From: Flavobacteriaceae bacterium | GTDB taxonomy: Bacteria > Bacteroidota > Bacteroidia > Flavobacteriales > Flavobacteriaceae | Length of the DNA: 32,646 nt | Direction of reading: 5' to 3' | NCBI GenBank assembly: GCA_013001285.1 | Contig: JABDMU010000068.1 | Span: forward strand, 1-32,646 | Shown here: positions 2,870 to 24,570 of the stretch, piece by piece | Layout of the letters: the number at the start of each line of letters is the position of its first letter | Numbering within the stretch: the first letter of the stretch is position 1 | Program-made: the position numbers and the translations under genes | The notes under the pieces: generated by a model | The model's database searches: none | What the model saw: only the letters and a program-made list of their open reading frames with translations | Told to the model about the DNA's origin: nothing

Positions 2870-5800
2870 TTTGTTCTTTTATGGCACGTTCAACTTCTTC
2901 TTTTGTGACCTTCTTCCCTGTTGCAAGCCATTTGCTGCGCGTTTTGATATCATTACTAAACGCTAGAAAAATGGGTAATACCAACAGGGTTAACACGGTA
3001 GCATAACCAATTCCGAAAGAGATTGATATTGCCATTGGTTTCAAGAATTGTGCTTGACGACTCTTTTCCAAAAGCAAAGGAGCAAGTCCGGCAATTGTGG
3101 TAAGCGATGTGAGGAATATGGCTCTAAAACGAGATTTTCCAGCAGCCTTCAACGCCTCATCAAAATTTAAACCGGAGCGCAATTGTTTATTGAACTTCCC
3201 AATAAGTACAAGACCATCATTAACCATAATTCCGATGAGTGCAATAATTCCTAATAAGGATAAAATATTCACTGGGAATCCTAAAATAAAATGTCCCCAA
3301 GCCACTGCGGTTAAACTAAACGGCACTAACAATAGCAACAGCAAAGGCTGGCTATAACTTCGGAATGTAAATGCGATAGTAATATATATAAGTACCAAAA
3401 TAATACCTCCAGCGCTTCTTAACGAATCATTCAGTCGCGTCGCTTCCCTGTTCTGGCCTTCAAAAGATGCTGTGATGGTTGGGTATTTCGATTGAAGATC
3501 TGGAATAAAAGTACCTTTTATTTCATCTAAAATATCTGTGCTACTCGTACTCGGATCCTTGAGATCTGCAGAAACTTGAATTTCTCTTCGACCCTCTAAA
3601 TGATTGATCGCCACATCACCTCTAATGATCGAATAGGTAGCTATATCGGATAGCGCCACCCTTTCGCCACTAGGGGTTAAAATTCTCATATCATCGAGAT
3701 TAGCAATTGAAGATCGGTTCTCTTTGTCATAACGTACCCAAACCCTTATCTCATCTTGACCTCTTTGAAATCGTTGTGCTTGTGCACCGAAGAATCCAGA
3801 TCTGATCTGACTCATAATTGTTCGCAGATCTAAACCTAATAAATAGGCACTCTCTTTAAGTTCTAAGCGAATTTCTTTGATCCCGGCCGGATCATTATCC
3901 TCTACATCTTTTAGCAAGGGATTCGAATTTAAATAATCCTTCAGCTCAATTTTCGCCGCCTTCAGTTCATCGATATTATTACTTAGAAGGGATACCGAAA
4001 CCGGGCTTCCTCCAAAATTACCGCCAAATCCAAAGATAAGACGCTCTGTACCTATTACCGGACCTACTAATTCTCGCAGTCGGTTTGACACTAAAAACGA
4101 ATTGATCTCATCTGGTCTTTCCTCTCCTGGCAACATATTAATAACGAGTCGCGCACTTGAGGCTCCATTAATTGTTTTAATGGTATTCTCGAATAATTCC
4201 TTATCAGTGCCTTTCAAATACTTTTCGGTGAACTCCTGATTGACGATATGAGATTTTTCTTCAATTAGTGAGATGATAGAGTCTGTGATCTTAACATTAG
4301 TACCGTTGGGCATATCCAATTCAACAGAAACCGTATCACTTGCGATTGAAGGAAACAAGGTCACGCCAATTATGCCACCACCAATAGAACCGAATGTTAA
4401 AATAAGTAGCGCAATAAAAAAGCCTAATGATAGCATTTTAAATTCCAGCACAAAGTTTAATGTAGGAGCATAAAGTTTATCTCTTAAAAACACCATCACC
4501 TTATCGCCATAGGTATTAATTCCACGCATTTTTGCGAAGAATTTTTTGATTTGAGACGGATTCTCTTCAAGTTTTTGTTTTCTTAAGGCTTTTGAATGTG
4601 CCAAATGGGCTGGTAAGATGATCAATGCCTCAATTAATGATACTGCCAATGTGAGCATTACAATAACGGAGACTTCCCCAAAAAACTCACCTATCCTACT
4701 GTCTAAAAATAAGAAGGTTGAAAATGCGAGTAAGGTGGTTATAATTGCTGAAACCACTGGTGGGATAACCTCCATGGTACCATCTATAGCCGAATCAACA
4801 GGTGATTTACCCATTTCATGATGTTGGAAAATGTTTTCAGCAATTACTATACCGTCATCTACCAAAATACCTATTACGATGATCATGCCAAAGAGCGAGA
4901 GCACATTGATGGTCACATCAAATTGACCGGCAAAAATAAACATCCCTAAAAAGGAGATTGGCAAACCAAATGCCACCCAAAAAGCCAAGCGCGTGTTTAA
5001 GAAAATTGACAAAAATATCAGAACCAGAAGGACTCCGGCAAGTGCGTTTTCAGCTAATAATTTAGTACGTTGGTTTAATGTAATTGACAAATCTCTTACA
5101 ACGCTCAACTGAACATTATTGTATTTCTGGTTGTAATCTTCAATATAGTCCTTTACCGCATCTGCAGATGATATTAAATCTTCATTATTCGTACTGGTTA
5201 CCGTAATGTCTACTGATAATTCATCATTGAAATACGTAGCACGTGGTGTTTCAGAAAACCGATCTCTTACTTCAGCAATATCTTTTAATCGTACGACTTT
5301 ACCATCAGGATTTGCTCTTATAATGATATGAGATAGCTCATCGCCATAATAGGATCTGTTATTTGCCCTAATGAGATATTCTTCAGCATCTGTCTTAATA
5401 TTACCACCTGTCACGAGGATATTAGATGAACTCACTGCCTGAGCCACATCATTGAAAGTGAGATTATAGGCTAATAAATTTGCTTCGTTCACTGCTACTT
5501 CAATCTCTTCATCCGGAAAACCAGAAATGGTAATTTGAGAAATCCCATCAATACCTCTCAGGTCATTTTCAATTTGCCTGCCTATTTGCTTTAATGTCTT
5601 TAATGGAATGTCTTTTCCACTAATTGCAAAACTAATAGTTTGCCTAATGGCTTCTTGCTTTGCAACCACAAGAGGCTCCATTCCTGTGGGGAAACTTGGA
5701 ACGCGATCTACCGCATTCTTTACTTCAAGAAGCATAAAATCGATATTCTCTCCTTTTTCAATTTCAACAGTAATGGTTCCGCTGTTTTCACGCGCTACAG

Positions 5801-6047
5801 AAGTCACACGATCAATCCCTTTTAATCCTTTGAGGTTATCTTCAATTTGCAGCACAATTCCTTCTTCAATTTCTTGAGGAGAAGCACCAGGATAAATAAT
5901 ATTTACATTGATGATCTTTGAATCAACTAAAGGAAAAAACGATGATTTCAAAGACAACATGCCAATGATCCCAAAAATGAAAAATGCTAGTATGACGACA
6001 TTAACGGCAACATGATATCTAATAAAAAAGCTTATGACCTTTCTCAT
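2850..6047 (-). CDS. RND-family efflux pump, inner-membrane transporter (AcrB-like)
   Basis: This 1065-residue protein has the usual length and duplicated topology of hydrophobe/amphiphile RND pumps: one membrane helix at residues about 9-30, a large periplasmic loop, a block of five or more helices, and then the repeat. The proton-relay pair is visible as Asp-Asp in GILVDDGIVIAEN (about 392-404). The matching second-half helix reads GIMVNDGLVLIGKFNK, with Asn where AcrB has its essential Lys, a substitution seen in many non-AcrB RND subfamilies. The pump exports a substrate by proton antiport through the adaptor and channel encoded on either side. It starts one base after the adaptor stop and overlaps the channel gene. 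The CusA methionine relay is not evident, so drugs or amphiphiles are more likely substrates than metals. Confidence 0.95.
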   Translation of the reverse strand: MRKVISFFIRYHVAVNVVILAFFIFGIIGMLSLKSSFFPLVDSKIINVNIIYPGASPQEIEEGIVLQIEDNLKGLKGIDRVTSVARENSGTITVEIEKGENIDFMLLEVKNAVDRVPSFPTGMEPLVVAKQEAIRQTISFAISGKDIPLKTLKQIGRQIENDLRGIDGISQITISGFPDEEIEVAVNEANLLAYNLTFNDVAQAVSSSNILVTGGNIKTDAEEYLIRANNRSYYGDELSHIIIRANPDGKVVRLKDIAEVRDRFSETPRATYFNDELSVDITVTSTNNEDLISSADAVKDYIEDYNQKYNNVQLSVVRDLSITLNQRTKLLAENALAGVLLVLIFLSIFLNTRLAFWVAFGLPISFLGMFIFAGQFDVTINVLSLFGMIIVIGILVDDGIVIAENIFQHHEMGKSPVDSAIDGTMEVIPPVVSAIITTLLAFSTFLFLDSRIGEFFGEVSVIVMLTLAVSLIEALIILPAHLAHSKALRKQKLEENPSQIKKFFAKMRGINTYGDKVMVFLRDKLYAPTLNFVLEFKMLSLGFFIALLILTFGSIGGGIIGVTLFPSIASDTVSVELDMPNGTNVKITDSIISLIEEKSHIVNQEFTEKYLKGTDKELFENTIKTINGASSARLVINMLPGEERPDEINSFLVSNRLRELVGPVIGTERLIFGFGGNFGGSPVSVSLLSNNIDELKAAKIELKDYLNSNPLLKDVEDNDPAGIKEIRLELKESAYLLGLDLRTIMSQIRSGFFGAQAQRFQRGQDEIRVWVRYDKENRSSIANLDDMRILTPSGERVALSDIATYSIIRGDVAINHLEGRREIQVSADLKDPSTSSTDILDEIKGTFIPDLQSKYPTITASFEGQNREATRLNDSLRSAGGIILVLIYITIAFTFRSYSQPLLLLLLVPFSLTAVAWGHFILGFPVNILSLLGIIALIGIMVNDGLVLIGKFNKQLRSGLNFDEALKAAGKSRFRAIFLTSLTTIAGLAPLLLEKSRQAQFLKPMAISISFGIGYATVLTLLVLPIFLAFSNDIKTRSKWLATGKKVTKEEVERAIKEQNEENEI

Positions 6048-6048
6048 C

Positions 6049-7176
6049 TTAGTTATTGTTTGGAGTTGGCTCTACATATTGCTTCACAAGCATTCCAGCA
6101 TATGCTCCTGGTACAGGACGAGATAAAATGACCGTACCGTTGGGCACATTTTTTAAAACCACTTTCGTCGATCCAAAAAAGACGGGTTCAACCGGTAAAA
6201 CATCAAGAATAGAATCCTTTACCACAAATACCTCATTATTCTCAAGTAGTAAATTTCTATTGATCTCAATGGCATTTTCTTCTTGTTTAGCATCGAGTTG
6301 CGCTTCAAGGAACATGCCTTCTTTTAAATCTTTACTGGTGATCTCAATATAGGCCGTTACCGTTTGGGTTGCTGGATCAATACTTCCATTAACTCGGGAT
6401 ACCTTACCTGAATAGGTTTCGGTTTTCTCAAGGTTATTTAGACGTACCTTTTCACCAACTTTCAACAGGCTTGCATAGTTTTTACTCAAAGCAACTTCCA
6501 TTTCATAAACTGAAGGATCAATAAAGGTTCCCAGTTTTTGTCCGTTACGAATTAAAGATCCTTCGGTAACCAAAGCTTCAGTAACAATGCCATTAAACGG
6601 TGCAGAAATGTTGTATTTCGACAATCGTTGCTCCAAATTCTTGACATTGTAATAATTGGAAATAATACCGCGACCCGTAATAAAATAGTTTTCTTTTTCT
6701 GAAGTCGTATCTGGCAGTTTTGGTGTAGCTTTATTTAAATCGAATCCGTTGAGATAGGCTTCCCATTTAGGAAACACATCCGGAAAATCAAGTCGAAGAT
6801 CCGGTAAAATTGCAGCTATGGAATTATAGAGATTACTTTTAGCTGATTGCACGCTTGCGTAAAACTCCGAAGCATCTATCCTAATAATGGTCTGACCTCT
6901 TTGATAAGTTTGACCTGGTCTGAATAACTTATTCCCAGATCTAAAGATGCCTTGTACTTCCGAAAACAATTCAACGCGACGCTTTGCTGTTAAGCTCCCG
7001 TTAGAAGGGATCACGATTTGAACCGTTTGGTTTTGAACTGTATCGGTAAAAACTGTTTTTACAACTTTGGCCGGAACTGGTCTCGGCTTGGTTTTATTAT
7101 CAATAAGTGATTTGGCAATATAAAAGGACCCTACTATAAGTAGAATCCCTAATATTGAGAGTATTACTTTTCTCAT
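6049..7176 (-). CDS. RND efflux periplasmic adaptor (HlyD/membrane-fusion family)
   Basis: This 375-residue protein has an N-terminal membrane anchor (residues about 4-25) and then a split biotinyl-lipoyl-like domain (SNGSLTAKRRVELFSEVQG at the front, and NISAPFNGIVTEALVTEGSLI after the helical part). A beta-barrel region follows (SGKVSRVNGSIDPATQTV). This is the standard adaptor architecture joining the inner-membrane pump to TolC. The helical hairpin is relatively long, with a poorly conserved insert (about 125-165). It is the first gene of the operon adaptor-pump-channel, followed after one base by the pump gene. Substrate is not predictable. Confidence 0.93.
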   Translation of the reverse strand: MRKVILSILGILLIVGSFYIAKSLIDNKTKPRPVPAKVVKTVFTDTVQNQTVQIVIPSNGSLTAKRRVELFSEVQGIFRSGNKLFRPGQTYQRGQTIIRIDASEFYASVQSAKSNLYNSIAAILPDLRLDFPDVFPKWEAYLNGFDLNKATPKLPDTTSEKENYFITGRGIISNYYNVKNLEQRLSKYNISAPFNGIVTEALVTEGSLIRNGQKLGTFIDPSVYEMEVALSKNYASLLKVGEKVRLNNLEKTETYSGKVSRVNGSIDPATQTVTAYIEITSKDLKEGMFLEAQLDAKQEENAIEINRNLLLENNEVFVVKDSILDVLPVEPVFFGSTKVVLKNVPNGTVILSRPVPGAYAGMLVKQYVEPTPNNN

Positions 7177-10776: not shown

Positions 10777-11667
10777 TTAGTAACTCCACATATCTTGTTC
10801 AAAGTCTCGAATTTTTTCTTTGACTCTGTTTGATTCTAATAATTGCATGAGAGCATTATCAGAAATGTATTCAGTAATTGTTCTGTCTCCTTGTACGTTT
10901 TCTTCTCTGAACGTATAGCCATTGAAACGTCTTGCATTCAATAAATGATCAAATGTTAATGGCACAGCACTATTTTTATTATTGAACGCCTTTGCTTCAT
11001 GAAGCACTTCACGCGCATCTGGGAAGAATACCCAAAATAAAGGCACGAGATCCACCTCGTCACTATCGATGAAGTTAACATCTGGAGCAACAGGAGCTAT
11101 CCCAAGCATTCGATATTTCAATTCGCCATGACGCTTATCGAAGTACCATAGACCTTTAATGTGATATTCAACAATATCAGCTGCAGTAATATCTCTTCTA
11201 TTGATATATTCAGCAGATAAAGCTTCACCGGCGTTTAATTGCTCGATACCTAATTCAGTGGTATCAACCAAAGTTAAGGCGGCTTGAATATCTTTTAAGG
11301 TACGTTTTGTTGTAAAATAAGAGTCGTCATAAATATTCGCGATTTTTCCGTTTTTCACATTGGACATCAAGACGTCAAATAAAGAGCGTCTGTTTTTGCC
11401 AATATTATTGGTATCGATAGGATAGTACATTGGAAAATTAACGCGCTCATCAAGCACTACTTTTTCCCATGTCATTCTTGAATATAAAATGTCTCTATCA
11501 TCAACATAACCATAATCTAATGGTTTATCGTTATCTAAAAGTTTTTGCGCATCAGTTTTCACACCAATATCTTCAGGTGTCTTAGCGTTAAGGATATTTG
11601 CTTGTGCAAATGCTCCAGTGCTTACAAACGCACATAAAACGATTACTATTACATTTTTTAAATTCAT
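10777..11667 (-). CDS. gldN: GldN, periplasmic ring component of type IX secretion/gliding machinery
   Basis: This 296-residue protein has a Sec signal peptide (MNLKNVIVIVLCAFVSTGAFAQ). The body carries recognisable GldN/PorN sequence: DDRDILYSRMTWEKVVLDERVNFPMYYP, SLFDVLMSNVKNGKI, a central EYHIKGLWYFDKRHGE and a conserved DLVPLFWVFFPDARE. GldN associates with lipoprotein GldK to form the large periplasmic ring under the outer membrane, which contacts the GldM shaft. It is the last gene of the gld run, 44 bases after gldM, and is followed by a strong terminator. The length matches the family. Confidence 0.96.
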   Translation of the reverse strand: MNLKNVIVIVLCAFVSTGAFAQANILNAKTPEDIGVKTDAQKLLDNDKPLDYGYVDDRDILYSRMTWEKVVLDERVNFPMYYPIDTNNIGKNRRSLFDVLMSNVKNGKIANIYDDSYFTTKRTLKDIQAALTLVDTTELGIEQLNAGEALSAEYINRRDITAADIVEYHIKGLWYFDKRHGELKYRMLGIAPVAPDVNFIDSDEVDLVPLFWVFFPDAREVLHEAKAFNNKNSAVPLTFDHLLNARRFNGYTFREENVQGDRTITEYISDNALMQLLESNRVKEKIRDFEQDMWSY

Positions 11668-11711: not shown

Positions 11712-13268
11712 TTAATTCGTAAGTTCTATAATAATTGGCGACACTTTCTTCAATCTGTAACTAGAGTTGCCTGCTATTTTAGCTTGTATATCAAATATTT
11801 GAACACTAGAACCACGTTTTGCTTTACGCAAGGCGGCCTGAGCTCTACTATTTAACTTACTACCACTTACATTTATTGTTGGTTGTCCTGGAACTTTAAA
11901 TTTAAATCCAGAAACGTTCAGCTTTAAGTCGAAATCAAAGTCATCTAATTTAGCACCAATGGTTGAGATCTCAAGGCTATTACGTTGCATTTTAATAGCT
12001 CCATCTTCACCTCTTACTGTACCAGTTGGTTTAGGGATATCTTTAATTCTGAACTTCGCAGCATCACTTACCTTAGTTCCGTCTGGTAAAGTACCCGTAA
12101 CATTTATAGTTACTTCTCTACCTTTAACTGTAGTTACATTCATCAAGTATTTTCCAACACCATTTGATTTTCTTAATCCACTTGCGCTTGCAGATACATT
12201 ATTATCTGAAACACCTGCGAAAGAAATGGTCATTGGGTTATCAACGCCACGGTATACTACGTTCATTTTATCAGCAGAAATCGTTGCTGAATTTGGTTTT
12301 GGAACAACTGCATATGTACTTTTTACAGGAATTACAATGACAGAGTCACCTTCTTTAAATTGGAATTCTCCATTGATCTCTCTTTCACCAACTGCTCCAG
12401 CTGGGAAATCAAGAAGGGTTTGACCTGCTTGCATTTGATCTGCAGGAATCTCTTGACCATTGATAATTACTTTATCAGCACTTAACGTGTTATCTTTTTT
12501 ACCAAGAACGATCTTTCCTTTAAAGTTTTCACCGTTAAAGAAAGCCGTCTTATCTGGAACCACAATGGCTTCGAAGTTTGTTAATGATGCTTCGATCTTA
12601 AGTTTTCCAGCAAGCATTGAAGACAATACTTCTGATTCAGTTGTTTTAATATCGGCTTGTAATTGTGTCATTTTAGTTAAAGAAGCCACTAAAGGAAATC
12701 CTTTATAGTGGTAGTCTAACCATGACAACACGTTGCCGTCTCTATTAGTTACATCATCTGTAGCAAATTTTTTCTGAACGTCTGCAGCAATATCTTGTAG
12801 ATCTGGGTTATCTTTCAATACATTTGATACTCCTGTTCGGAATTTAGCGATATTATCGAGAAATTCTTGTCCTTCAGGTTTTAGCTTATCACCAATAAAA
12901 AATTGCTGATCTAACCAATCTGATTTATCCATGATTTCATAATCTTGAGGATCATCGACAGAGGCTGTCATTTGACCTTTAAGATTGGTGAGGTATGAAT
13001 TAAAATCATTAGCTAAAACAGAGATTTGATCTGCTTGAGCCTTTAAAGGACGGTATTTTGCAGGTTGTTCTTCAACCTTATCTGCTAATCCTTGCATGAA
13101 ATCTGAATTACGCTGCGTTGCAGAGGCATTCGATTCTGTAAGTTTAGCATTCATCAATCCAAATGCAGATAAGACTTCTTTTGACATATTCAACGCTAAC
13201 ATCGCGATGAAGATCAAATACATCAAATTAATCATTTTCTGCCTTGGGGATAAATTTCCTTGTGCCAT
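11712..13268 (-). CDS. gldM: GldM, motor shaft of the type IX secretion system
   Basis: This 518-residue protein has a short cytoplasmic N terminus (MAQGNLSPRQKM), one membrane helix (about 13-33, MINLMYLIFIAMLALNM) and a long periplasmic part made of consecutive domains. These include a helical D1 region (about 40-220) and immunoglobulin-like domains towards the C terminus. In the known complexes a GldM dimer is surrounded by a GldL pentamer and turns proton flow into rotation transmitted to the GldK/N ring. Length and the N-terminal helix match the family closely. It lies 49 bases after gldL and 44 before gldN, in the usual gldKLMN order. Confidence 0.97.
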   Translation of the reverse strand: MAQGNLSPRQKMINLMYLIFIAMLALNMSKEVLSAFGLMNAKLTESNASATQRNSDFMQGLADKVEEQPAKYRPLKAQADQISVLANDFNSYLTNLKGQMTASVDDPQDYEIMDKSDWLDQQFFIGDKLKPEGQEFLDNIAKFRTGVSNVLKDNPDLQDIAADVQKKFATDDVTNRDGNVLSWLDYHYKGFPLVASLTKMTQLQADIKTTESEVLSSMLAGKLKIEASLTNFEAIVVPDKTAFFNGENFKGKIVLGKKDNTLSADKVIINGQEIPADQMQAGQTLLDFPAGAVGEREINGEFQFKEGDSVIVIPVKSTYAVVPKPNSATISADKMNVVYRGVDNPMTISFAGVSDNNVSASASGLRKSNGVGKYLMNVTTVKGREVTINVTGTLPDGTKVSDAAKFRIKDIPKPTGTVRGEDGAIKMQRNSLEISTIGAKLDDFDFDLKLNVSGFKFKVPGQPTINVSGSKLNSRAQAALRKAKRGSSVQIFDIQAKIAGNSSYRLKKVSPIIIELTN

Positions 13269-13317: not shown

Positions 13318-13959
13318 TTAGTTTTTGTTCATAGCAGAAAGCATACCACCATACACACCATTTAATGATGAAAGGTTAGAAGCTAATGATTGCATTTGTT
13401 CTTTTAACTTGGCGGCATTTTCAATAGCCTCTTCGTTAATTGTAGCTTGACGGTTTACACTATCAAGTTGTACTTTATATAAACTGTTCAGCGATTCCAT
13501 TTGTGCAGCAGCCAAAGATAGCTCTTCGCCATACTTTTTTGTTGCAGCAATTGAATCTACGGTTGGGTTCAAACTTTTTGCAGCACCTTCAAAATTCTTT
13601 ATGCTGTCGCCTAAACTTGCCATAAGTTCGCCGTCAATTTTTGCGTCTTTTAATAAATCATCTAATTTTTTAGAAAGTAAACCTTCAGCATCTTTGGGGG
13701 CTTCTTTTTTACCTTTGTTTTGTCCACCAGCTAATTCTGGGTAAACTAGAGACCAGTCTAAATCATCGTCAACTGGTTCGAATGCAGAAAGTGCAAAGAT
13801 AATTGCTTCGGTTACAAGACCAATGGTTAACATTACGTTACCCGTTAACGGTCCTATTTCAAAGTGAATAATTTTGAACAGAGCTCCAATAATTACAATT
13901 GATGCTCCTAAACCATAAGCCATATTCATGAACTTTTTGCTTGCTTTTGATTGTGCCAT
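13318..13959 (-). CDS. gldL: GldL, inner-membrane motor protein of the type IX secretion system
   Basis: This 213-residue protein has two N-terminal membrane helices (about 13-32 and 38-59) and a long cytoplasmic tail, partly coiled coil. Polar residues expected in the proton path are present: Lys29 and His32 at the end of helix 1, Glu51 inside helix 2 (GLVTEAIIFALSAFEP) and Glu61 just after it. By alignment these glutamates correspond to those shown to matter for the motor in Flavobacterium. GldL pentamers surround the GldM dimer. It sits between gldK and gldM. The start codon follows the first copy of an 18-base direct repeat (see findings). Confidence 0.97.
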   Translation of the reverse strand: MAQSKASKKFMNMAYGLGASIVIIGALFKIIHFEIGPLTGNVMLTIGLVTEAIIFALSAFEPVDDDLDWSLVYPELAGGQNKGKKEAPKDAEGLLSKKLDDLLKDAKIDGELMASLGDSIKNFEGAAKSLNPTVDSIAATKKYGEELSLAAAQMESLNSLYKVQLDSVNRQATINEEAIENAAKLKEQMQSLASNLSSLNGVYGGMLSAMNKN

Positions 13960-14009
13960 AATAATTGTTTTTAGTTAAGTTAAATGTATTTTAATAATTG
14001 TTTTTAGTT
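13959..14009. repeat. 18-bp direct repeat at the gldK/gldL junction
   Basis: TAATAATTGTTTTTAGTT occurs exactly twice, at 13959-13976 and 13992-14009, with a 33-base period. One copy ends at the last base of the gldL start codon and the other spans the gldK stop codon. It looks like a short tandem duplication of the A-rich leader before the gldL start. Confidence 0.9.
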
Positions 14010-15398
14010 CCGGTTCCTTTTCTTTGTGTTGGTTCCATTACCTTTTGCATTACTGGTAATATCTGTTCCCATATAATCTTGTACAGTACGGAATCCAATA
14101 TAACTTCTTGCAGAATCGGCATATTCATAATCTCTTGAACTTACTTGTAAGAAATATGCAACATCTTTCCAAGAACCACCACGTACAACTTTTCGTTCGT
14201 TTTCTTCGTCGTTAACACTTGGATTGAATGTAGCTGTATATTCATATGATGATGGATCGTAAGATGAATGTACCCATTCTGATACGTTTCCAGCCATATT
14301 ATATAAGTTATAATCATTAGGTTCATAAGCATCTGCTTCAACAGTATATAAAGCCTGATCAGCTGCATAATCACCTCTTAATGGTTTAAAGTTGGCCATA
14401 AAACAACCACGGTCGTTTTTAGCATAAGGTCCACCCCAAGGGAATGTTGCACCTTGAAGTCCGCCACGAGCAGCATACTCCCATTCGGCTTCTGATGGTA
14501 GTCTGAAGCTATTTACGAATTGTCTGTTTCTGCTTTTTTGGCTTGCATTTTTATATAAGGTACGCCATTGGCAAAAGGCTTTAGCCTGTTCCCAAGAGAC
14601 ACCAACAACCGGATAATCTCCATAGGCATCATGCCAGAAGTAGTCGTTATGCATTGGTTCGTTATATGAGTAAGAGAAATCTCTGATCCAAACTGTAGTA
14701 TCTGGATATATTTCCACTTCTTCAGTCATTATGACGTCGCTTCTTTTTAGCTCTTTATATTTTGCAGCTGTTTTAAGGTCCATATATTTATATTGGAACT
14801 TGAACTTAGAAACATCCCAAGTTCTTTGACCATTATAAGACTCTTCAATAGGAAGATACATGGTATCCATAACCTCGGCATAATATTCATCAGGATATTC
14901 GTCGGTATCAAAAATAAGATCTACATCATTATTCAATTTTCTACCTTCATAGCCAGTAGGACCCATTCCACTATAATTATCAAGCATATATTTTTCATAA
15001 ACGCTCATACTAGCGGTATCTGCATCTTTAAATGCAAACTCTCCAGTACCACCATCTCCTGGGGCTAATCCCATATCATCAGCTAAGATCGCTAATTTCA
15101 TTCTGATGGTTGAATCTCTTACCCAATTTACAAATTGACGATACTCGGCATTTGTAATTTCAGTTTCATCCATATAAAAGGCTCTTACAGTAACGGTTTT
15201 TGTAGGTGCATCTTGAACACCAGCTAAATCGTCATCTGATTTTCCCATTATAAAGGCACCTCCTGGAACAAGTTCCATTCCATACGGTTTTTCAGGATGC
15301 CATTTTTTTCCTTTAACTCCTACTAATTCTCCTCTGTCACCAGAGCCACAACTTGCGAGTAGAGCTAAAACTGCGGTTAATAAAACAAACTTCTTCAT
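14004..15398 (-). CDS. gldK: GldK, outer-membrane ring lipoprotein of the type IX secretion system
   Basis: From the ATG at 15398 the product is 464 residues. It begins with a lipoprotein signal, MKKFVLLTAVLALLASC, with the lipid-modified Cys at residue 17. The rest is a formylglycine-generating-enzyme-like fold (early MELVPGGAFIMG; later PVVGVSWEQAKAFCQWR, FRLPSEAEWEYAARGG, NMAGNVSEWV and VVRGGSWKD), which in GldK is structural rather than catalytic. An in-frame start at 15488 would add 30 residues and bury the signal peptide, and a promoter-like element lies inside that extension, so I reject it. GldK forms the ring with GldN. An upstream terminator separates it from the arginase-like gene. 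Confidence 0.96.
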   Translation of the reverse strand: MKKFVLLTAVLALLASCGSGDRGELVGVKGKKWHPEKPYGMELVPGGAFIMGKSDDDLAGVQDAPTKTVTVRAFYMDETEITNAEYRQFVNWVRDSTIRMKLAILADDMGLAPGDGGTGEFAFKDADTASMSVYEKYMLDNYSGMGPTGYEGRKLNNDVDLIFDTDEYPDEYYAEVMDTMYLPIEESYNGQRTWDVSKFKFQYKYMDLKTAAKYKELKRSDVIMTEEVEIYPDTTVWIRDFSYSYNEPMHNDYFWHDAYGDYPVVGVSWEQAKAFCQWRTLYKNASQKSRNRQFVNSFRLPSEAEWEYAARGGLQGATFPWGGPYAKNDRGCFMANFKPLRGDYAADQALYTVEADAYEPNDYNLYNMAGNVSEWVHSSYDPSSYEYTATFNPSVNDEENERKVVRGGSWKDVAYFLQVSSRDYEYADSARSYIGFRTVQDYMGTDITSNAKGNGTNTKKRNRN

Positions 15399-15445
15399 AA
15401 ACATAAACTCGAGGTTAATATTCTCACTTATTAATTTTAAGGTGG

Positions 15446-15476
15446 TAAACATATTTATATATTTCCAAAAAAACAA
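15446..15476 (-). promoter_or_regulatory. possible promoter of the gldKLMN run
   Basis: On the minus strand TTG, 20 bases, then TATGTTTA gives 7 of 8 matches to TAnnTTTG at proper spacing, about 48 bases upstream of the preferred gldK start. It is the best candidate in the 155-base gap, but tentative because the region is very AT-rich. Confidence 0.35.
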
Positions 15477-15506
15477 CTTTTTAGTCAAAAAAAACGCATT
15501 TTATCC

Positions 15507-15553: not shown

Positions 15554-16720
15554 TTAGACGCAATTTTTCTTGAAGGCTTTATACCATCTTTCCGGAATTT
15601 TCCCATTTGAAGCATCGATATAATCTTCATGCATGCATGGTAATAACGTATGACGCTTCAATTTATTATCAATATTCGGTAAAAAAGGTATCTCGATCCA
15701 CCAACGGCCTGTTTTATTACTTTTATAAAAGATCAAGGTATCCTCTTCTATAAGTACCGTAAACTTTTGATAGCCGTTATCATCTGAAAAATCATCATCT
15801 TTTACACGACAATTAACACCTTCGATAAAATACCATATTATTTGAGCAATTAACATTGAAGTAGCTTCATCATCTTTGGATGGTTTATATTCATAAATTC
15901 CAAAAGAAGAAACTTTATTGCTTATTCCAGCATAGCGCGAAATAGCGCAAATCTCCTTGCCGTCAAATCCGTTAGGAGAATATTTTTGTTTTGAACTAAC
16001 CTCAGAAGACCTAATACTTCTAAGATCTAAACTCACAATATTTGCATCCCTCAATATAGGTTCTACAAAACTAACATTATTTGCGATTTCTCCAAGCCTA
16101 TATGCCTCAAAATAAAGCTTTTCCATTAAATCTATTTCTTCTTGAGAATTGAAATAAGTTTGATATCCCAAGGTTGAGTAATTGAATAAATTATATGGTT
16201 GCTCCATTATGATCTTCCCTAAAAAACTAGTGTTCTTAATAGGTTTTGCTGAATCGCCGAGATCGAAATTACAATCTACATTCACGATATTCACCATGGG
16301 CATAAGGTCATCATAGCTTCGGTAAGTTGCATAGGTTAGATCCTGGCTTCCACCTATAATAATAGGAATGATGTCATTTTTTAGAAGCTCGTTAACAGTG
16401 GTTGTTACTGCAAAATAAGTATCTGAAACCTGTTCTCCTTGTTTAATATCACCAAGATCGGCCACACCAGATAGCCAATTTCCTGGAAATAATGCATATA
16501 AAGATTTTCTGATCTCATTCAGTTGAAACTCTTCTCCTATATAATTAACATCATTACGATTTTCGAGGACTCCCATAATGACCATCTTAACATCGCCAAG
16601 GTCTGGGAGCCCATTTTGTGTAGAATGTACTTTAATTTTTCTTCCAAGTGCTTGAGTTGGTAATAACTCATTATGTGCTAATACCAGATCTTGAACAGGT
16701 GAGAGAAAACTAAGATTCAT
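15554..16720 (-). CDS. arginase-fold (formimidoylglutamase-like) protein with altered metal site
   Basis: This 388-residue protein aligns with the ureohydrolase family, and relatives in Flavobacteria are usually named formimidoylglutamase. However, the three metal motifs are changed. GGDHS is GGSQD (residues 123-127, His to Gln). DAHxD is DCNFD (149-153, His to Asn). SxDxDxxDP is SLDLRSIRS (230-238, second Asp to Arg). Three of six Mn ligands are therefore missing, so hydrolysis of guanidine-type substrates is doubtful. No signal peptide or membrane helix is seen. It starts 3 bases after the topA stop and is followed by gldK, without hut or arginine-pathway genes. A structural, regulatory or altered catalytic role is inferred, not shown. 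Confidence 0.8.
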   Translation of the reverse strand: MNLSFLSPVQDLVLAHNELLPTQALGRKIKVHSTQNGLPDLGDVKMVIMGVLENRNDVNYIGEEFQLNEIRKSLYALFPGNWLSGVADLGDIKQGEQVSDTYFAVTTTVNELLKNDIIPIIIGGSQDLTYATYRSYDDLMPMVNIVNVDCNFDLGDSAKPIKNTSFLGKIIMEQPYNLFNYSTLGYQTYFNSQEEIDLMEKLYFEAYRLGEIANNVSFVEPILRDANIVSLDLRSIRSSEVSSKQKYSPNGFDGKEICAISRYAGISNKVSSFGIYEYKPSKDDEATSMLIAQIIWYFIEGVNCRVKDDDFSDDNGYQKFTVLIEEDTLIFYKSNKTGRWWIEIPFLPNIDNKLKRHTLLPCMHEDYIDASNGKIPERWYKAFKKNCV

Positions 16721-16723
16721 TAT

Positions 16724-19213
16724 CTATTTCTTTTTTGTAGTCGATTTTCGTTTGGCGCCTTTTTTCTTTGGTGCATTTTTTTCAAGCAAGTCCTTGACTT
16801 CCTCAAGTGTCAATTTTGAAGCATCAACAGTTTTTGGTAATTCTATTTTGGTCTTACCCTTAATAATTTGGTGTCTACCCCATCGTGCCTTTTCTACTTT
16901 TATACCTTCTTCCTCCCAATGATGAACCAATTTGTCGATGTCTTTTTGAATTTTGGTTTCAATAAGTTCAATGATATCAGCTTCCGAAAGATTATCCCAA
17001 TCGTATTTTTTATTCACATTAATGAACATGTTGTTCCATTTGATAAATGGTCCAAATCGACCTTTACCTTTTATAACTGGCAGTTCTTTATACGTATAAA
17101 TAGGTGCATCAGCCAGTTCTTTTTCTTTTATTAAAACTATGGCGTCTTCTAATTCAACACTCATTGGGTTCATGCCTTTTGGTAAGGAAACAAATTTCTT
17201 TCCGTGCTTAACATAAGGTCCAAAGCGTCCATTATTCACTTCAACCTTTTCATTTTTATATTCTCCAAGATCCTTCGGCAATTTAAACAGATCCATGGCC
17301 TCATCATAGGTTATGGTATTTAATTGTTGATCAGGAGACAGACTGGCAAACAAAGGCTTGTCTTCATCGTCAACCGTTCCAATTTGAACCATTGGTCCAA
17401 ATTTTCCAAGACGTACACTCACTTGTCTTCCGGTTTCTGGATCAACTCCAAGTACGCGTTCACCTGATTCTCGCTCGGCATTCTCTTGAACATCTTCAAC
17501 TTTCGGATGAAAATCTTTATAAAAGTCTTTCATCATTTTAGTCCAATCTTCTTTGCCTTCAGCTATATCATCAAAATCGGCTTCTACCTTAGCGGTAAAA
17601 TTATAATCTAAAATACTTTCGAAATGATTCACTAAAAAATCTGTAACGATCATGCCTATATCTGTCGGCACTAATTTTCCTTTATCTGAACCTACCTTCT
17701 CTGATAAATTCTTTTCCGAAATAGAATTATGTTCTAGTACCAGTTGAACATAGTTGCGTTTTTCGCCTTCAATAGTTCCTTTTTCAACATAACCACGATT
17801 TTGAATTGTAGAAATGGTAGGAGCATAAGTAGAAGGTCTACCAATACCTAATTCTTCTAACTTTTTTACTAATGATGCTTCGGTATATCTATATGGTGGT
17901 CGTGAGTAGCGTTGCGTTGCTGTTATATAATTGTTGATCAAAGTTTGGCCAATGCGCATATCTGGTAGCATGTCTTGTTGCTCAAGATCTTCATCATCTG
18001 TACCCTCAAGATACACCTTCAAAAAACCATCAAATTTTATAACCTCTCCATTAGCACCAAAGATCTCATTATGCGCCGAGGTCTTAATTTTTACTTGTGT
18101 ACGCTCTAATTGCGCATCACTCATTTGCGATGCAATGGCACGCTTCCAAATAAGATCATAAAGTCTGGCCTGATCGCGACTTATATCAACAGATTGTTGA
18201 GAAAAATCTGTTGGTCTTATGGCCTCATGCGCTTCTTGGGCTCCTTTAGATTTTCCTTTGTAATTTCTAGGTTTACTATATTGAGAACCATACGAATTGT
18301 GAATTTCTTGTTCAGCCGATTTTCTAGCTTCATCAGACAAATTGGTACTGTCTGTTCTCATATATGTGATCAAACCTGCTTCGTACAAACGTTGCGCCAT
18401 AGTCATGGTCTTACTTACCGAAAAATACAATTTTCGAGAGGCCTCTTGCTGTAAAGTTGATGTTGTAAATGGTGCAGCAGGTGATTTTTTAGCTGGCTTT
18501 TTTTCGAGATCCGAAACTTCAAAAGTTGCATTGCTGTTTTTTTGAAGAAAGGCGTTGGCCTCATCTTTAGTTTTAAAGGTATGCGGTAATTTTGCTTTAA
18601 ATGACTGTCCGTCCTCCGTTGAAAACTCAGCATCAATTCTAAAGCTCGCTTCAGGAGTAAAGGCTTCTATTTCGCGTTCGCGTTCTACAATTAATCTCAC
18701 TGAAACCGATTGAACACGTCCTGCAGAAAGACCGCTTTTTATTTTTCTCCATAAAACTGGAGATAGCTCATAACCAACTATTCTATCCAGAACACGTCGT
18801 GCTTGTTGAGCATCAACTAAATTATAATCGATATCTCTCGGATTTTCAATAGCGCGTTGAATGGCTGTTTTTGTGATCTCATGAAATACGATACGCTTGA
18901 TTTTCGACTTATCTAACTTAAGCGTTTCTGCAAGATGCCAGGCAATTGCTTCTCCTTCTCTATCTTCATCACTTGCCAACCAAACTATTTCGGCTTTTTT
19001 TGCCAGCTCCTTTAACTTTTTAACCACTGATTTCTTATCACTGGACACCTGATATTTCGGCTTAAAATTTCCATCGACATCAACTCCTAATTCTTTTGAT
19101 GGTAAGTCGGCAATATGTCCAAAACTAGACTCTACTTTAAAATCTTTTCCTAAAAATTTTTCTATAGTTTTTGCCTTTGCAGGTGACTCAACAATCACTA
19201 AATTCTTCGCCAT
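16724..19213 (-). CDS. topA: DNA topoisomerase I (type IA)
   Basis: This 829-residue protein starts with the TOPRIM domain (LVIVESPAKAKTIEKFLG, then the acidic metal site ASDEDREGEAIAWHLAE, about 77-93). The type IA core carries the nucleophilic tyrosine in GLITYMRTDST (Tyr284). It nicks one strand through a 5'-phosphotyrosine and relaxes negative supercoils. After the core, instead of the four-cysteine zinc fingers of E. coli, there are several cysteine-free C-terminal repeats (FGPMVQIG, FGPYVKHGKKFVSLP, FGPFIKWNNMFINV, RWGRHQIIKGKTKIELP) and a Lys-rich tail, the Bacteroidota/Gram-positive arrangement. Length fits. It is followed after 3 bases by the arginase-like gene, probably on one transcript. 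Confidence 0.97.
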   Translation of the reverse strand: MAKNLVIVESPAKAKTIEKFLGKDFKVESSFGHIADLPSKELGVDVDGNFKPKYQVSSDKKSVVKKLKELAKKAEIVWLASDEDREGEAIAWHLAETLKLDKSKIKRIVFHEITKTAIQRAIENPRDIDYNLVDAQQARRVLDRIVGYELSPVLWRKIKSGLSAGRVQSVSVRLIVEREREIEAFTPEASFRIDAEFSTEDGQSFKAKLPHTFKTKDEANAFLQKNSNATFEVSDLEKKPAKKSPAAPFTTSTLQQEASRKLYFSVSKTMTMAQRLYEAGLITYMRTDSTNLSDEARKSAEQEIHNSYGSQYSKPRNYKGKSKGAQEAHEAIRPTDFSQQSVDISRDQARLYDLIWKRAIASQMSDAQLERTQVKIKTSAHNEIFGANGEVIKFDGFLKVYLEGTDDEDLEQQDMLPDMRIGQTLINNYITATQRYSRPPYRYTEASLVKKLEELGIGRPSTYAPTISTIQNRGYVEKGTIEGEKRNYVQLVLEHNSISEKNLSEKVGSDKGKLVPTDIGMIVTDFLVNHFESILDYNFTAKVEADFDDIAEGKEDWTKMMKDFYKDFHPKVEDVQENAERESGERVLGVDPETGRQVSVRLGKFGPMVQIGTVDDEDKPLFASLSPDQQLNTITYDEAMDLFKLPKDLGEYKNEKVEVNNGRFGPYVKHGKKFVSLPKGMNPMSVELEDAIVLIKEKELADAPIYTYKELPVIKGKGRFGPFIKWNNMFINVNKKYDWDNLSEADIIELIETKIQKDIDKLVHHWEEEGIKVEKARWGRHQIIKGKTKIELPKTVDASKLTLEEVKDLLEKNAPKKKGAKRKSTTKKK

Positions 19214-20266: not shown

Positions 20267-21712
20267 ATGGAAAAGATTATTGATGAAAAGAAACAAGGAC
20301 AAACCCTTGTACTAGATAAGAAAGAAGGCAATTCACGAAAACTTTTTATTGAAAGTTATGGCTGTGCTATGAACTTTAGCGATAGCGAGATCGTGGCATC
20401 AATCCTCTCTAACGAAGGCTTTGATACGACTCAACATCTTGAGGATGCCGATCTTGTACTGGTAAATACTTGCTCGATTCGTGATAAAGCCGAACAAACG
20501 GTTAGAAAACGCTTGGAGAAATACAATGCCGTTAAAAAAATAAATCCGAAAATGAAAATAGGCGTATTAGGCTGTATGGCCGAACGTCTGAAAACCAAAT
20601 TTCTAGAGGAAGAAAAAATGGTAGATATGGTCGTCGGACCAGATGCCTATAAGGATCTTCCTAACCTCATCGCTGAGATCGATGATGGACGAAATGCCGT
20701 AAATGTCATTCTTTCTAAAGAAGAAACCTATGGCGATATTTCACCTGTCCGATTAAACAGCAATGGCGTTACAGCTTTTGTTTCTATAACACGAGGATGT
20801 GATAACATGTGTACCTTTTGTGTTGTTCCATTTACCCGTGGTCGTGAGCGCAGTCGAGATCCACATAGCATTCTTGAAGAAGTGAATGACCTTTGGTTTA
20901 AAGGCTATAAAGAAATTACCTTACTTGGCCAAAATGTAGATAGTTATTTATGGTATGGTGGCGGACTTAAAAAGGACTTCGATAAAGCTACAGAAATTCA
21001 AAAAGCAACAGCCACCAATTTTGCCGGATTACTCGATCTTTGTGCAAAAGCACAGCCAAAAATGCGCATCCGCTTTTCAACATCGAATCCTCAGGATATG
21101 ACCATGGACGTTGTTGAAACTATGGCGCAACATAAAAACATTTGTAATTATATTCATCTTCCAGTACAAAGCGGAAGTAATCGTATTTTGAAAGCGATGA
21201 ACCGTCAGCACACACGTGAAGAATATTTTGATATGATTGCTAAAATAAAACGTATTCTTCCTGATTGTACGATCTCTCATGATCTTATCGCTGGTTTTCC
21301 AACCGAAACCGAAGCCGATCATCAAGAAACTTTGAGTTTAATGGAACATGTAAAGTATTCGTTCGGTTATATGTTTGCGTATTCAGAACGCCCTGGAACC
21401 ATGGCCGAACGCAAACTAGAAGATGATGTACCGGAAGCCGTTAAGAAAAGAAGATTACAGGAAATTGTCGATCTGCAACAAGTACATAGTCGCATTCGAA
21501 CAGAAGAATTTTTAAATAAAACAGTGGAAGTCCTAATTGAAAAAGAATCAAAAAAATCTGATCAGCATTGGTCAGGACGAAACGAACATAATTCGGTGGT
21601 GGTCTTTCCGAAGGAACATTATAAAATAGGCGATTTTGTGAATGTAAGAACAACTGATTGTACAACAGCTACGCTTATTGGAGAAGCTATAGGATATTCA
21701 GAAAATAATTAA
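20267..21712 (+). CDS. miaB: tRNA-2-methylthio-N6-dimethylallyladenosine synthase MiaB
   Basis: This 481-residue protein has the methylthiotransferase plan. The N-terminal UPF0004 domain carries three cluster cysteines (Cys33 in [11 protein letters not shown], then NTCSIRDKA and GVLGCMAER). A radical SAM domain follows with CxxxCxxC in [17 protein letters not shown], and a C-terminal TRAM domain (about 415-478) binds tRNA. It adds the methylthio group at position 2 of i6A37 in tRNAs reading UNN codons, using two 4Fe-4S clusters and [13 protein letters not shown] and NRQHTREEY favour MiaB over MtaB or RimO. It is the first gene of a compact operon and is followed after two bases by the sigma-54 activator. 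Confidence 0.96.
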
Positions 21713-21714
21713 TT

Positions 21715-22968
21715 ATGGAATCAGTTCAAGCAATAAAACAACGTTTTGGAATTATTGGAAACGATCCAGGATTAAATCGGGCCGTTGAAAAAGCCATTCA
21801 GGTTTCGCCAACCGATATTTCTGTTTTGGTGACTGGTGAATCTGGTGTTGGAAAAGAAAGTATCCCCAAGATCATACATCAATTATCACATCGTAAACAT
21901 GGAAAATATATAGCTGTGAATTGCGGTGCTATTCCTGAAGGCACTATTGATAGTGAGTTGTTTGGTCATGAAAAAGGCGCATTTACAGGTGCTACTCAAA
22001 CACGTTCAGGTTATTTTGAAGTTGCCGATGGTGGTACTATATTCTTAGATGAAGTTGGCGAGTTACCGCTGACCACCCAAGTACGCTTGTTGCGTATTTT
22101 GGAAAATGGTGAATTCTTAAAAGTGGGATCAAGTAAGGTCCAAAAAACCAATGTGCGCATTGTAGCGGCAACAAACATGAACATGTTTGAGGCCATTCAA
22201 AAGGAAAAATTTAGAGAAGACCTGTATTACAGATTAAGTACAGTTGAGATCAATTTGCCTGCTCTTCGAAAACGTAAAGATGACATTCATTTGCTATTCC
22301 GAAAATTTGCCAGCGATTTTGCTTTAAAATATAAAATGCCAACCATCCGATTGACTGATGATGCGGTCCAAATATTATTGAATTATCGATGGAGTGGAAA
22401 TATTCGTCAATTGCGAAATGTAGCCGAACAGATTTCGGTATTGGAACAAAATAGAACGATAACTGCTGAAACGCTGAGACACTATTTGCCAGATATGGGT
22501 TCTAATCTACCGGCTGTTATCAAATCTTCAAAATCTGAAAGCGACTTCAGCAACGAGCGTGAGATCTTGTATAAGGTATTGTTTGATATGAAAAGTGATC
22601 TGAACGATTTGAAAAAGTTAACCATGGAGTTAATGCAAAGCGGAAATGGTCATGAAGTTCAAAAAAAGAATCAAGGTCTGATCGAGAAAATATATGGTGA
22701 TGACGACGACGATGCCGTTGAAAGCCAACTTGAAGTAATGCCTGTTGATAGCAGCTCGCAATCTGAAGTTGAAGTGGTTAACACACCAGATAAGTATCAT
22801 TTTGCCGAAGAAATTGAAGAAGAAGAAACCTTATCGCTGCATGACAAAGAATTAGAATTGATAAAAAAATCATTGGAGCGTCATAATGGAAAACGTAAAT
22901 TAGCTGCTGCTGAACTGGGTATTAGTGAACGCACTTTATATAGGAAAATCAAACAATTTGATCTTTAA
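21715..22968 (+). CDS. sigma-54-dependent transcriptional activator without receiver domain
   Basis: This 417-residue protein starts almost directly with the AAA+ domain: Walker A GESGVGKE (41-48), the sigma-54 contact loop GAFTGA (88-93), Walker B GGTIFLDE (about 106-113) and the arginine-finger region REDLYYRLS. A less conserved linker (about 265-375) contains an acidic stretch (GDDDDDAVES). A Fis-type helix-turn-helix closes the protein (KLAAAELGISERTLYRKIKQF). It should remodel RNA polymerase-RpoN at enhancer-bound promoters. There is no receiver, GAF, PAS or other sensor domain, so activity must be controlled by level, by partner proteins (PspF-like) or through the linker. It lies inside the miaB-secG operon. 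Confidence 0.94.
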   Translation: MESVQAIKQRFGIIGNDPGLNRAVEKAIQVSPTDISVLVTGESGVGKESIPKIIHQLSHRKHGKYIAVNCGAIPEGTIDSELFGHEKGAFTGATQTRSGYFEVADGGTIFLDEVGELPLTTQVRLLRILENGEFLKVGSSKVQKTNVRIVAATNMNMFEAIQKEKFREDLYYRLSTVEINLPALRKRKDDIHLLFRKFASDFALKYKMPTIRLTDDAVQILLNYRWSGNIRQLRNVAEQISVLEQNRTITAETLRHYLPDMGSNLPAVIKSSKSESDFSNEREILYKVLFDMKSDLNDLKKLTMELMQSGNGHEVQKKNQGLIEKIYGDDDDDAVESQLEVMPVDSSSQSEVEVVNTPDKYHFAEEIEEEETLSLHDKELELIKKSLERHNGKRKLAAAELGISERTLYRKIKQFDL

Positions 22969-22981
22969 TTAGAAGTTATTT

Positions 22982-23179
22982 ATGAAAGCAGTAGAAATAT
23001 TTATGATCAGAAAATCGTTTAGCAGAAACAGTTCTGAAAAGATTCGTCAAGAAGCTGAAGATCTGGTGAACGAAAAACATTATAAAGGCTATCGCGTCAT
23101 CAACGTAGATTTTGATGTGGCAGATAATGCTGGCTATATTTATGCGTTTATAACCATGAAACGTCCAAATACGTATTAA
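22982..23179 (+). CDS. hypothetical small protein between the activator and lptE
   Basis: This 65-residue product is not one I recognise. It is mixed charged, with a helical middle (SSEKIRQEAEDLVNEKHYKGYRV) and a beta-like end (INVDFDVADNAGYIYAFITMK). There is no signal peptide or membrane segment. Support for it being real: it starts 13 bases after the activator stop, its stop codon overlaps the lptE start by one base (TAATG), and its composition resembles that of its neighbours. An antisense frame of 71 codons over the same stretch has a Phe/Ile-rich composition and no context, so I take it as a shadow. Confidence 0.65.
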   Translation: MKAVEIFMIRKSFSRNSSEKIRQEAEDLVNEKHYKGYRVINVDFDVADNAGYIYAFITMKRPNTY

Positions 23180-23685
23180 TGAAAAAGACATATTTCATTT
23201 TACTAGTTATTAGTGTACTTACCACAGCTTCCTGTGGCCCTTATTCATTTACAGGTGCTTCAATTCCTGACGGCACAGAAACTTTTCAAGTGAACTATTT
23301 TCAGAATAATGCACCATTAATAGAACCTGGACTAGATCGTGATTTCACGCTAGCCCTTCAAGATATCATATTGAATCAAACCAATTTAGATTTGGTTAAA
23401 ACGAATGGTGATCTGGTTTATGAAGGTGAAATCGTTGAATACCGCATTTCCCCAACAACAGCGACTGCAAACAATACAGCCGCTCAAAACCGATTGACCA
23501 TTGCTGTTTTAGTCCGGTTTTTTGATACTAAAAATGACCAAAATGATTTTGAGCAACGCTTTTCATTTTTTTTCGATTATGAAGGCAGTGCGCAATTAAT
23601 CGGTTCGCAAAAAGACACTGCCGTAGCCGAGATTTTTGAACGTATAACTCAAGATGTCTTTAATGCATCGCTAGCTCGTTGGTAA
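23179..23685 (+). CDS. lptE: LptE-family lipopolysaccharide assembly lipoprotein
   Basis: This 168-residue lipoprotein has signal MKKTYFILLVISVLTTASC with the lipidated Cys19, followed by GPYSFTGASIPDGTETFQV, the usual opening of Bacteroidota LptE (annotated LptE family protein). LptE plugs the LptD barrel in the outer membrane and helps insert lipopolysaccharide. The remaining sequence alternates strands and a helix (LDRDFTLALQDIILNQTNL; GDLVYEGEIVEYRIS) consistent with the LptE fold. It begins on the last base of the preceding stop and ends directly against the next start, so translation of all three is likely coupled. Confidence 0.9.
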   Translation: MKKTYFILLVISVLTTASCGPYSFTGASIPDGTETFQVNYFQNNAPLIEPGLDRDFTLALQDIILNQTNLDLVKTNGDLVYEGEIVEYRISPTTATANNTAAQNRLTIAVLVRFFDTKNDQNDFEQRFSFFFDYEGSAQLIGSQKDTAVAEIFERITQDVFNASLARW

Positions 23686-24570
23686 ATGAATACAAGTGAT
23701 TTTATTCACATATTAAAACAGCCTCAAGAACTTGACAGTGCTCAATTTAGTGATGTGCGTTCGGTCATTTCTGAATTCCCCTATTTTCAGCCGGCACGAG
23801 CGATTTATTTGAAGGGTTTAAAAAATCAAGAGAGTTTCAAATACAATCAAGAATTAAAAACGACTGCTGCCTTTACCACAGACCGATCGGTTTTATTTGA
23901 TTTTATTACCTCTTCTGAATTTGAGCAAAATTCGATTTCAGAAAAGATCAAAAAGAATCTCGAAAATCTCAAAGATATTGAGATCTATGATATAGAAGAT
24001 GTTTCCATAAGTACAAGTGTTTCATTGAACAAGGCCATTACAGAACATTTTAAAGCGAATGAGCCCTTGGTTGAAGCTTTTAATAGTGACATAGATTTTG
24101 AGAAAGTTCAAAAAACGGAAGTGCCTTCAATTCAAATTGAAAAAACACCAGAAGAAAAACTTGAGTTAGGAAAACCACTTGAGTTTGACAGTTCAGAAAT
24201 GCATTCCTTTAGCGAATGGCTAAAGATCACAAGTTTCAAACCTATTATAAGGGAAGCCAGTTCAGCCAAAGCTGATACAGCTGAAACTCGTGCCGAAAAA
24301 ACTAAAAAAAGTGACCTAATTGATAGGTTCATAGAAACCAATCCGAAGATCAAACCAGTTCGTGAGGATCAGCAAATAACAGATTTCACCAGTAACAGAA
24401 ACTACGCTCCTGAATCCTTGATGACGGAGACCTTAGCACGCATTTATTTGGAACAAAAAAATTACGAAAAAGCAATTCAGGCTTACAAAATATTAAGTTT
24501 GAAATATCCAGAAAAAAGTGGTTTCTTTGCAGACCAAATTCAAACAATAAAAGAAATTCAAAATAAGTAA
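23686..24570 (+). CDS. TPR-like protein of unknown role
   Basis: This 294-residue protein starts right after the lptE stop, with no gap. It lacks a signal peptide or membrane segment. The N-terminal part (MNTSDFIHILKQP...ISEFPYFQPARAIYLKGLKNQESFKYNQELK) is helical. The middle is low-complexity and charged (about 95-225). The C terminus holds one clear tetratricopeptide unit (ESLMTETLARIYLEQKNYEKAIQAYKILSLKYPEKSG, about 244-280). Relatives in Flavobacteria are usually annotated as TPR proteins without function. Its fixed place between lptE and secG hints at an envelope role, but that is inference. Confidence 0.85.
   Translation: MNTSDFIHILKQPQELDSAQFSDVRSVISEFPYFQPARAIYLKGLKNQESFKYNQELKTTAAFTTDRSVLFDFITSSEFEQNSISEKIKKNLENLKDIEIYDIEDVSISTSVSLNKAITEHFKANEPLVEAFNSDIDFEKVQKTEVPSIQIEKTPEEKLELGKPLEFDSSEMHSFSEWLKITSFKPIIREASSAKADTAETRAEKTKKSDLIDRFIETNPKIKPVREDQQITDFTSNRNYAPESLMTETLARIYLEQKNYEKAIQAYKILSLKYPEKSGFFADQIQTIKEIQNK

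Follow-up and report, generated by a model that had tools for sequence, protein, structure and literature searches.

What does a gene of the arginase superfamily do among the genes of the type IX secretion system (T9SS), and is its product still an enzyme? The question is raised by the window analysed here, a stretch of 32,646 nucleotides from a Flavobacteriaceae bacterium. In Bacteroidota, gliding and the secretion of enzymes and adhesins are driven by the T9SS, and little is known about the cytoplasmic side of its motor. A first-pass annotation had placed the gene at 15554-16720, between topA and gldK. The open reading frame is found exactly there, on the minus strand (the strand had been left unstated), with topA upstream and gldK downstream, followed by gldL, gldM and gldN, all on the same strand:

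10777..11667, minus strand: gldN/porN, T9SS ring subunit (TIGR03523, 268.8 bits, cut-off 85.9)
11712..13268, minus strand: gldM/porM, T9SS motor protein (TIGR03517, 518.5 bits, cut-off 180)
13318..13959, minus strand: gldL/porL, T9SS motor protein (TIGR03513, 226.5 bits, cut-off 68.3)
14004..15488, minus strand: gldK/porK, T9SS ring lipoprotein (TIGR03525, 599.9 bits, cut-off 350); start codon as called by the ORF listing, uncertain
15554..16720, minus strand: putative pseudo-ureohydrolase gene, 388 aa
Residues 64-298 of the 388-aa protein: Pfam Arginase domain (59.9 bits, gathering score 22)
Residues about 306-388 of the 388-aa protein: family-specific C-terminal extension
16724..19213, minus strand: topA, DNA topoisomerase I, directly upstream; its stop codon lies 3 bp before the start of the arginase-fold gene

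By eye, no signal peptide is evident at the N-terminus of the arginase-fold protein, so a cytoplasmic location is likely. Elsewhere in the window, Pfam matches identify an outer membrane efflux protein, an AcrB-type pump and a HlyD-type adaptor, encoded consecutively at 1544-7176 (minus strand). The plus strand carries, at 20267-24570, successive genes for MiaB, a sigma-54 activator-type protein and LptE, which diverge from the topA operon. A TonB-dependent receptor (28467-30707) precedes a HlyD/CusB-type protein with a heavy-metal-binding domain and DUF3347 (30724-32475).

Fold and metal ligands

The match to the Pfam Arginase superfamily is significant. An AlphaFold2 model of the 388 residues, built from an alignment of 40 close sequences only, has a mean pLDDT of 61 and a pTM of 0.63, with residues 152-220 below 50. 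The top Foldseek matches of this low-confidence model are metformin hydrolase chains and formiminoglutamases (E 7e-10 to 1e-8), and a second structural comparison places the formiminoglutamase of Trypanosoma cruzi first (Z 16.4). The formiminoglutamases superpose at 3.6-3.7 A over 242-251 residues of the model (pLDDT 61). Agmatinases reach Z 14. The rows of this second comparison, formiminoglutamases included, span model residues about 16-307, with the extension beyond about 307 barely covered. Profile and model together point to a predicted arginase fold.

In the numbering of the window protein, metal A of a binuclear ureohydrolase is taken here to be bound by His126, Asp149, Asp153 and Asp232, and metal B by Asp149, His151, Asp232 and Asp234. 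The corresponding codons, with coordinates computed from the start at 16720, are as follows:

16341..16343, minus strand: codon 126, Gln replaces the first His ligand (metal A) of GGDHS
16272..16274, minus strand: codon 149, Asp ligand common to metals A and B, kept
16266..16268, minus strand: codon 151, Asn replaces the His ligand of metal B in DAHxD
16260..16262, minus strand: codon 153, Asp ligand of metal A, kept
16023..16025, minus strand: codon 232, Asp ligand common to metals A and B, kept
16017..16019, minus strand: codon 234, Arg replaces the second Asp of SxDxD (metal B)

The motifs named in the first-pass annotation, GGSQD (Q126), DCNFD (N151) and SLDLR (R234), are thus present, and the window protein keeps three of the six ligands (H, D, H, D, D, D) of binuclear ureohydrolases. 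In Escherichia coli agmatinase the ligands are reported as H126, D149, H151, D153, D230 and D232 (PMC8049259). The true ligands do not lie elsewhere in the protein: pairwise, multiple and fold-level comparison place Q126, N151 and R234 at the ligand positions. The motif register holds in pairwise alignments with agmatinase 3pzl and formimidoylglutamase 3m1r, both solved structures. Multiple alignment sets the protein beside 22 ligand-bearing enzymes from the same phylum; of these, 21 have His at 126, and all 22 have His at 151 and Asp at 234. Misalignment of the motifs is ruled out by these pairwise and multiple alignments.

The pattern was followed through 152 family rows (80 named loci and further genomes), compared with the same 22 ligand-bearing ureohydrolases. 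Seven duplicates and the 22 enzymes were removed before the 152 rows were counted, and the position counts are dominated by Flavobacteriaceae (the 80 named loci and the genomes of family f1, that of the window); a core of 65 rows is also without 7 divergent members. None of the six ligands is kept in 1 family row, one in 6, two in 9, three in 121 and four in 15, and no row keeps five or six. The 22 relatives, which comprise 20 secondary or weak matches fetched regardless of their ligands plus L125 and L128, assigned after motif inspection, keep five in 2 cases and six in 20. The substitutions therefore run through the family, with exactly three ligands kept in 121 of 152 rows. The earlier proposal of a pseudoenzyme or altered enzyme gains support from the three replacements and from the lack of any relative among the 152 that keeps more than four of the six. 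A tree built from 72 family rows and the 22 enzymes has one branch, with support 100/99, that parts the two groups; the tree was midpoint-rooted and has several long branches, and the dividing split occurs in 100% of 200 bootstrap trees.

Among the 152 rows, D149 is kept in 143, D153 in 137 and D232 in 147 (94%, 97% and 100% of the 65 core rows, respectively), H151 is kept in only 5 and D234 in only 3. Positions 151 and 234 vary across the family (K, N, R, S, T, G), and position 126 is Q in 128 rows, H in 12 and N in 7. Asn114 of the T. cruzi formiminoglutamase presumably occupies the ligand position equivalent to 126. In the PDB listing, both the wild type and the N114H variant of that enzyme carry two Mn, and because of this, and of the family members that have His there, position 126 is not decisive by itself. 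As judged from the alignment, the ligand loss discriminates between the sites: metal B is without its two private ligands (151 and 234), and the metal A aspartates D149, D153 and D232 are kept. This division of the three lost ligands by metal site was absent from the first-pass annotation. Selective loss of this kind speaks against simple decay, and D149, D153 and D232 form a candidate metal site only.

A metal A site built of three Asp and Gln, His or Asn might support a different, one-metal reaction. The conservation of D149, D153 and D232 in the core rows speaks for this, as does E277, kept in 118 of 152 rows, and the histone deacetylases are reported to show that the fold works with one metal, at site B (PMC5454378). 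Against it, positions 151 and 234 vary freely, E277 is lost in 34 of 152 rows, and distant members (L122, L123, L126, L127 and L129) lose the A-site aspartates too. A conserved enzyme would not tolerate such variation and loss at its site, and an altered enzyme is for this reason considered rather unlikely.

Positions invariant in the 65 core rows and rare in the 22 enzymes include R55, P175, F204, G210, E220, P221, R224 and G274, and also W296, W340, W341, C362, Y367, A370 and P376. The C-terminal extension (about 306-388) is strongly conserved and family-specific. In six close pairs dN/dS is about 0.005-0.065, with dS above 1 in three of the six; at the level of sequence, the family gene is shown to be under purifying selection. 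Random pseudogene decay is ruled out by these ratios together with the open frame in most genomes.

Some copies depart from the common form. In L126 and L127 the family profile matches only from position 196 and 205 onward, respectively; the half with GGxxD and DxxxD is unrecognisable and the C-terminal half still matches. These two copies (L126:5451-6284 and L127:4996-5832, both of family f5) and L223 and L224 (f84) are shortened or diverged, with only the C-terminal part of the profile recognisable. In genome G249 (C1:921214-922365; L216, L225 and L226) the copy upstream of gldK lies in three overlapping pieces, one of them with 3 TAG; it is either a broken gene or a sequencing error, and is a counter-example to the open frame. 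Tamlana nanhaiensis (NZ_JTDV01000010.1; L059 and L060) has two copies 189 kb apart on one contig with identical proteins (388/388), either a real duplication or an assembly artefact.

Enzyme annotation and the histidine pathway

The first-pass annotation had held that the name formimidoylglutamase would be wrong, and the curated models agree. The best curated family match is hutG (TIGR01227), at 68.7 bits against an NCBIfam cut-off of 229.15, and the curated agmatinase model of NCBIfam gives 22.9 bits against a cut-off of 174.3; both lie below the cut-off, and the formimidoylglutamase name is not justified. Its remark that no histidine-degradation genes lie nearby holds for the annotated ORFs of the window; elsewhere the genome carries urocanase and FtcD, the latter on contig C69 (358.5 bits, cut-off 221.25). 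The same genome has two ordinary ureohydrolases elsewhere (229.8 and 210.2 bits).

It is highly improbable that the protein is a true formimidoylglutamase, unusual in its ligands, that acts in histidine breakdown. hutG is its best curated match, and with urocanase in the genome the pathway exists. The hutG cut-off is not reached, however, the metal B ligands are missing, and FtcD performs the same step, so that with urocanase and FtcD histidine breakdown can do without the arginase-fold protein. The family gene is also still carried by 17 of the 20 urocanase-negative class genomes listed (of 55 negatives). In one genome paper, histidine degradation is reported as undetected except for formiminoglutamase (PMC11278836); this call may be a member of the T9SS-linked family described here. 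The name formimidoylglutamase on family members misleads pathway reconstruction.

Gene order and co-occurrence with the T9SS

Linkage was counted in the 91 genomes common to both match lists (the best 150 rows of each). Among the matches listed, 71 of 91 genomes, in 25 of 31 families, have the gene within 5 kb upstream of gldK and in the same orientation; it is far away on the same contig in 5 genomes and on a different contig in 15. The gap between the gene and gldK is 110-296 bp in f1 and about 1.2-1.5 kb in other families, with room for one gene, which is of the porP family where examined (TIGR03519 in L133). The order topA-X-porP-gldK, where X is the arginase-fold gene, is frequent. Among 80 named loci of the Flavobacteriaceae type, which include two identical copies on one contig, 76 have topA-X-gldK, 3 have a locus that ends with topA-X, and 1 has no match. 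Ten further genomes with weaker profile matches were compared by hand; four are linked (G249, G346, G406 and G419) and six are not.

The gene is not near gldK in families f2, f3, f4, f8 and f9. In f3, f4, f8 and f9 it has unrelated neighbours, among them nqrF and genes for an S13 carboxypeptidase and a sugar epimerase. In three f5 loci it adjoins murF and a GldJ-like gene (410.4 bits, below the cut-off of 458.2), and two of these also have a porP-family gene.

Occurrence was surveyed at two levels. In 198 genomes of the phylum, all 49 with GldK belong to one class, and 48 of the 49 also match the window protein (exception G190); the remaining 149 give only weaker matches, which end before the C-terminal extension. 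The class survey covered 295 genomes: 274 have GldK, and 276 have a family member by profile search (E at most 1e-6). Bacteroidales such as Porphyromonas are not recognisable in the class survey, and human-associated T9SS lineages lie outside the tested set. Ordinary ureohydrolases score up to 120 bits with the family profile, and a second search covered 25 of the 26 rows with E above 1e-82 (all except G455, E 1.5e-75). The C-terminal extension or part of it is reached in 22, one of them in pieces and one a contig-end fragment; G303, G334 and G356 are N-terminal fragments of 137-278 bits. That the weak matches among the 276 are ordinary ureohydrolases is ruled out by this second search, and the count stands.

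The T9SS was scored as present where any of GldK, GldM or SprA was found, with GldM and SprA searched in 17 discordant or double-negative genomes and in the genome of the window. Among 253 good-quality class genomes, 246 are T9SS-positive, and 238 of these carry the family. The other 8 give no family match (G190, G213, G292, G312, G347, G373, G397 and G454), and the protein is therefore not an obligate T9SS part everywhere. Of the 7 T9SS-null genomes, 5 are without the gene (G219, G226, G262, G320 and G440). G250 (95% complete) and G423 (99%) have a full-length copy and no match to GldK, GldM or SprA. The association of family and T9SS gives a Fisher p of 3e-6, a value that takes no account of kinship; of the five losses, three fall in one family. 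Co-occurrence is strong but not strict.

There is a modest chance that the gene has a housekeeping function unrelated to the T9SS and owes its position between topA and gldK to an old conserved gene order. The presence of topA upstream in most linked loci fits such a function, as does family f2, where topA is a neighbour and gldK is not nearby (L122; in L123 topA is two ORFs away). G250 and G423 keep the gene without a T9SS, and lineages in which it is unlinked to gldK keep it too. Against this, the link to gldK persists in L028/L139, where topA was not seen, the three f5 genomes have the gene beside murF and the GldJ-like gene, two of them with the porP-family gene, and the gene is lost in 5/7 T9SS-null versus 8/246 T9SS-positive genomes. 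The tie to gliding and secretion raised in the first-pass annotation is supported by conserved linkage to gldK and by imperfect co-occurrence, with the gene present in two T9SS-null genomes and missing from eight that are T9SS-positive.

Proposed role and related systems

The explanation we favour, with somewhat more belief than doubt, is that the protein is a cytoplasmic, non-hydrolytic, arginase-fold accessory of the T9SS/gliding machine and no longer a binuclear ureohydrolase. Putative pseudoenzyme status is well supported by the ligand pattern, and a role in the T9SS is suggested by linkage and imperfect co-occurrence; that topA, a housekeeping gene, is likewise a constant neighbour counts against an accessory of the T9SS. 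With metal B absent, the hydroxide that bridges the two metals and attacks the carbon of the guanidino or formimino group would not form, and hydrolysis would therefore not take place. The pocket may be structural, or may hold one metal or a small ligand. Less certainly, the protein might bind a T9SS part on the cytoplasmic side. PorX is reported to bind the cytoplasmic domain of GldL in Flavobacterium johnsoniae (PMC10951265), so that this surface of GldL takes soluble partners; since another cytoplasmic protein already binds there, the GldL cytoplasmic domain would be the most plausible target. The family protein could help to assemble or regulate the GldLM motor, possibly acting through the family-specific EP..R and RWW...C...DY..A surfaces. 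The likeness to PorX as a soluble cytoplasmic protein acting on the T9SS motor is a proposed one: PorX is described as unrelated in fold and sequence (CheY-like and PglZ domain), and interaction with GldL was shown for PorX and is proposed here (PMC10951265).

Pseudoenzymes of the ureohydrolase superfamily are already known: MetCb/MfmB is reported to be a metal-free pseudoenzyme subunit of metformin hydrolase (PMC11271267). Like the family protein it has the arginase fold and has lost metal ligands, and it persists as a binding partner, a part that is only proposed here. It differs in being paired with an active ureohydrolase encoded alongside, whereas the neighbours of the family are topA, porP and gldKLMN; unlike MetCb/MfmB, the family conserves the three A-site aspartates. 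By this same-superfamily precedent, the window protein might be a pseudo-subunit that joins one of the cell's ordinary ureohydrolases in mixed oligomers and modulates it. The two ordinary ureohydrolases of the genome and the metformin hydrolase chains at the top of the Foldseek list are in keeping with such a pairing. We regard it as improbable, with T9SS genes and topA as the conserved neighbours: MetCa and MetCb are encoded together, whereas no ureohydrolase adjoins the gene among the annotated ORFs of the window or the annotated neighbours in other loci.

The preferred reading, a T9SS accessory, sets the family apart from its enzymatic relatives as well. With HutG (TIGR01227) and agmatinase/arginase (PF00491) it has in common the fold, the motif register and the DLGDI, GG and SxD strands. 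It differs in that the metal B ligands are gone, position 126 is mostly Gln, the gene context is that of the T9SS, a C-terminal extension of about 80 residues is added and the scores fall far below the curated cut-offs. An arginase-like protein of Trypanosoma brucei without the Mn cluster is said to be a natural pseudo-arginase likewise, and differs in being eukaryotic. Histone deacetylases and acetylpolyamine amidohydrolases are described as having the fold with one of the two metal sites lost, the deacetylase metal site being site B of arginase (PMC5454378). They keep site B and are active (PMC5454378); the family is the reverse, with site A residues kept and B lost.

Among open-licence papers, no literature was found that links an arginase-fold or formimidoylglutamase-like protein to the T9SS or to gliding. 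The family also offers a large natural case in which binuclear enzymes appear to have shed one metal site selectively. With its position in the core cluster in most families checked and its presence in 276 of 295 class genomes, the gene is an obvious candidate for a missing T9SS part, and this candidate matches only an enzyme family whose chemistry its ligand set would not be able to perform. The family protein is probably an overlooked helper of the secretion and gliding machine rather than the metabolic enzyme that sequence matches call it.
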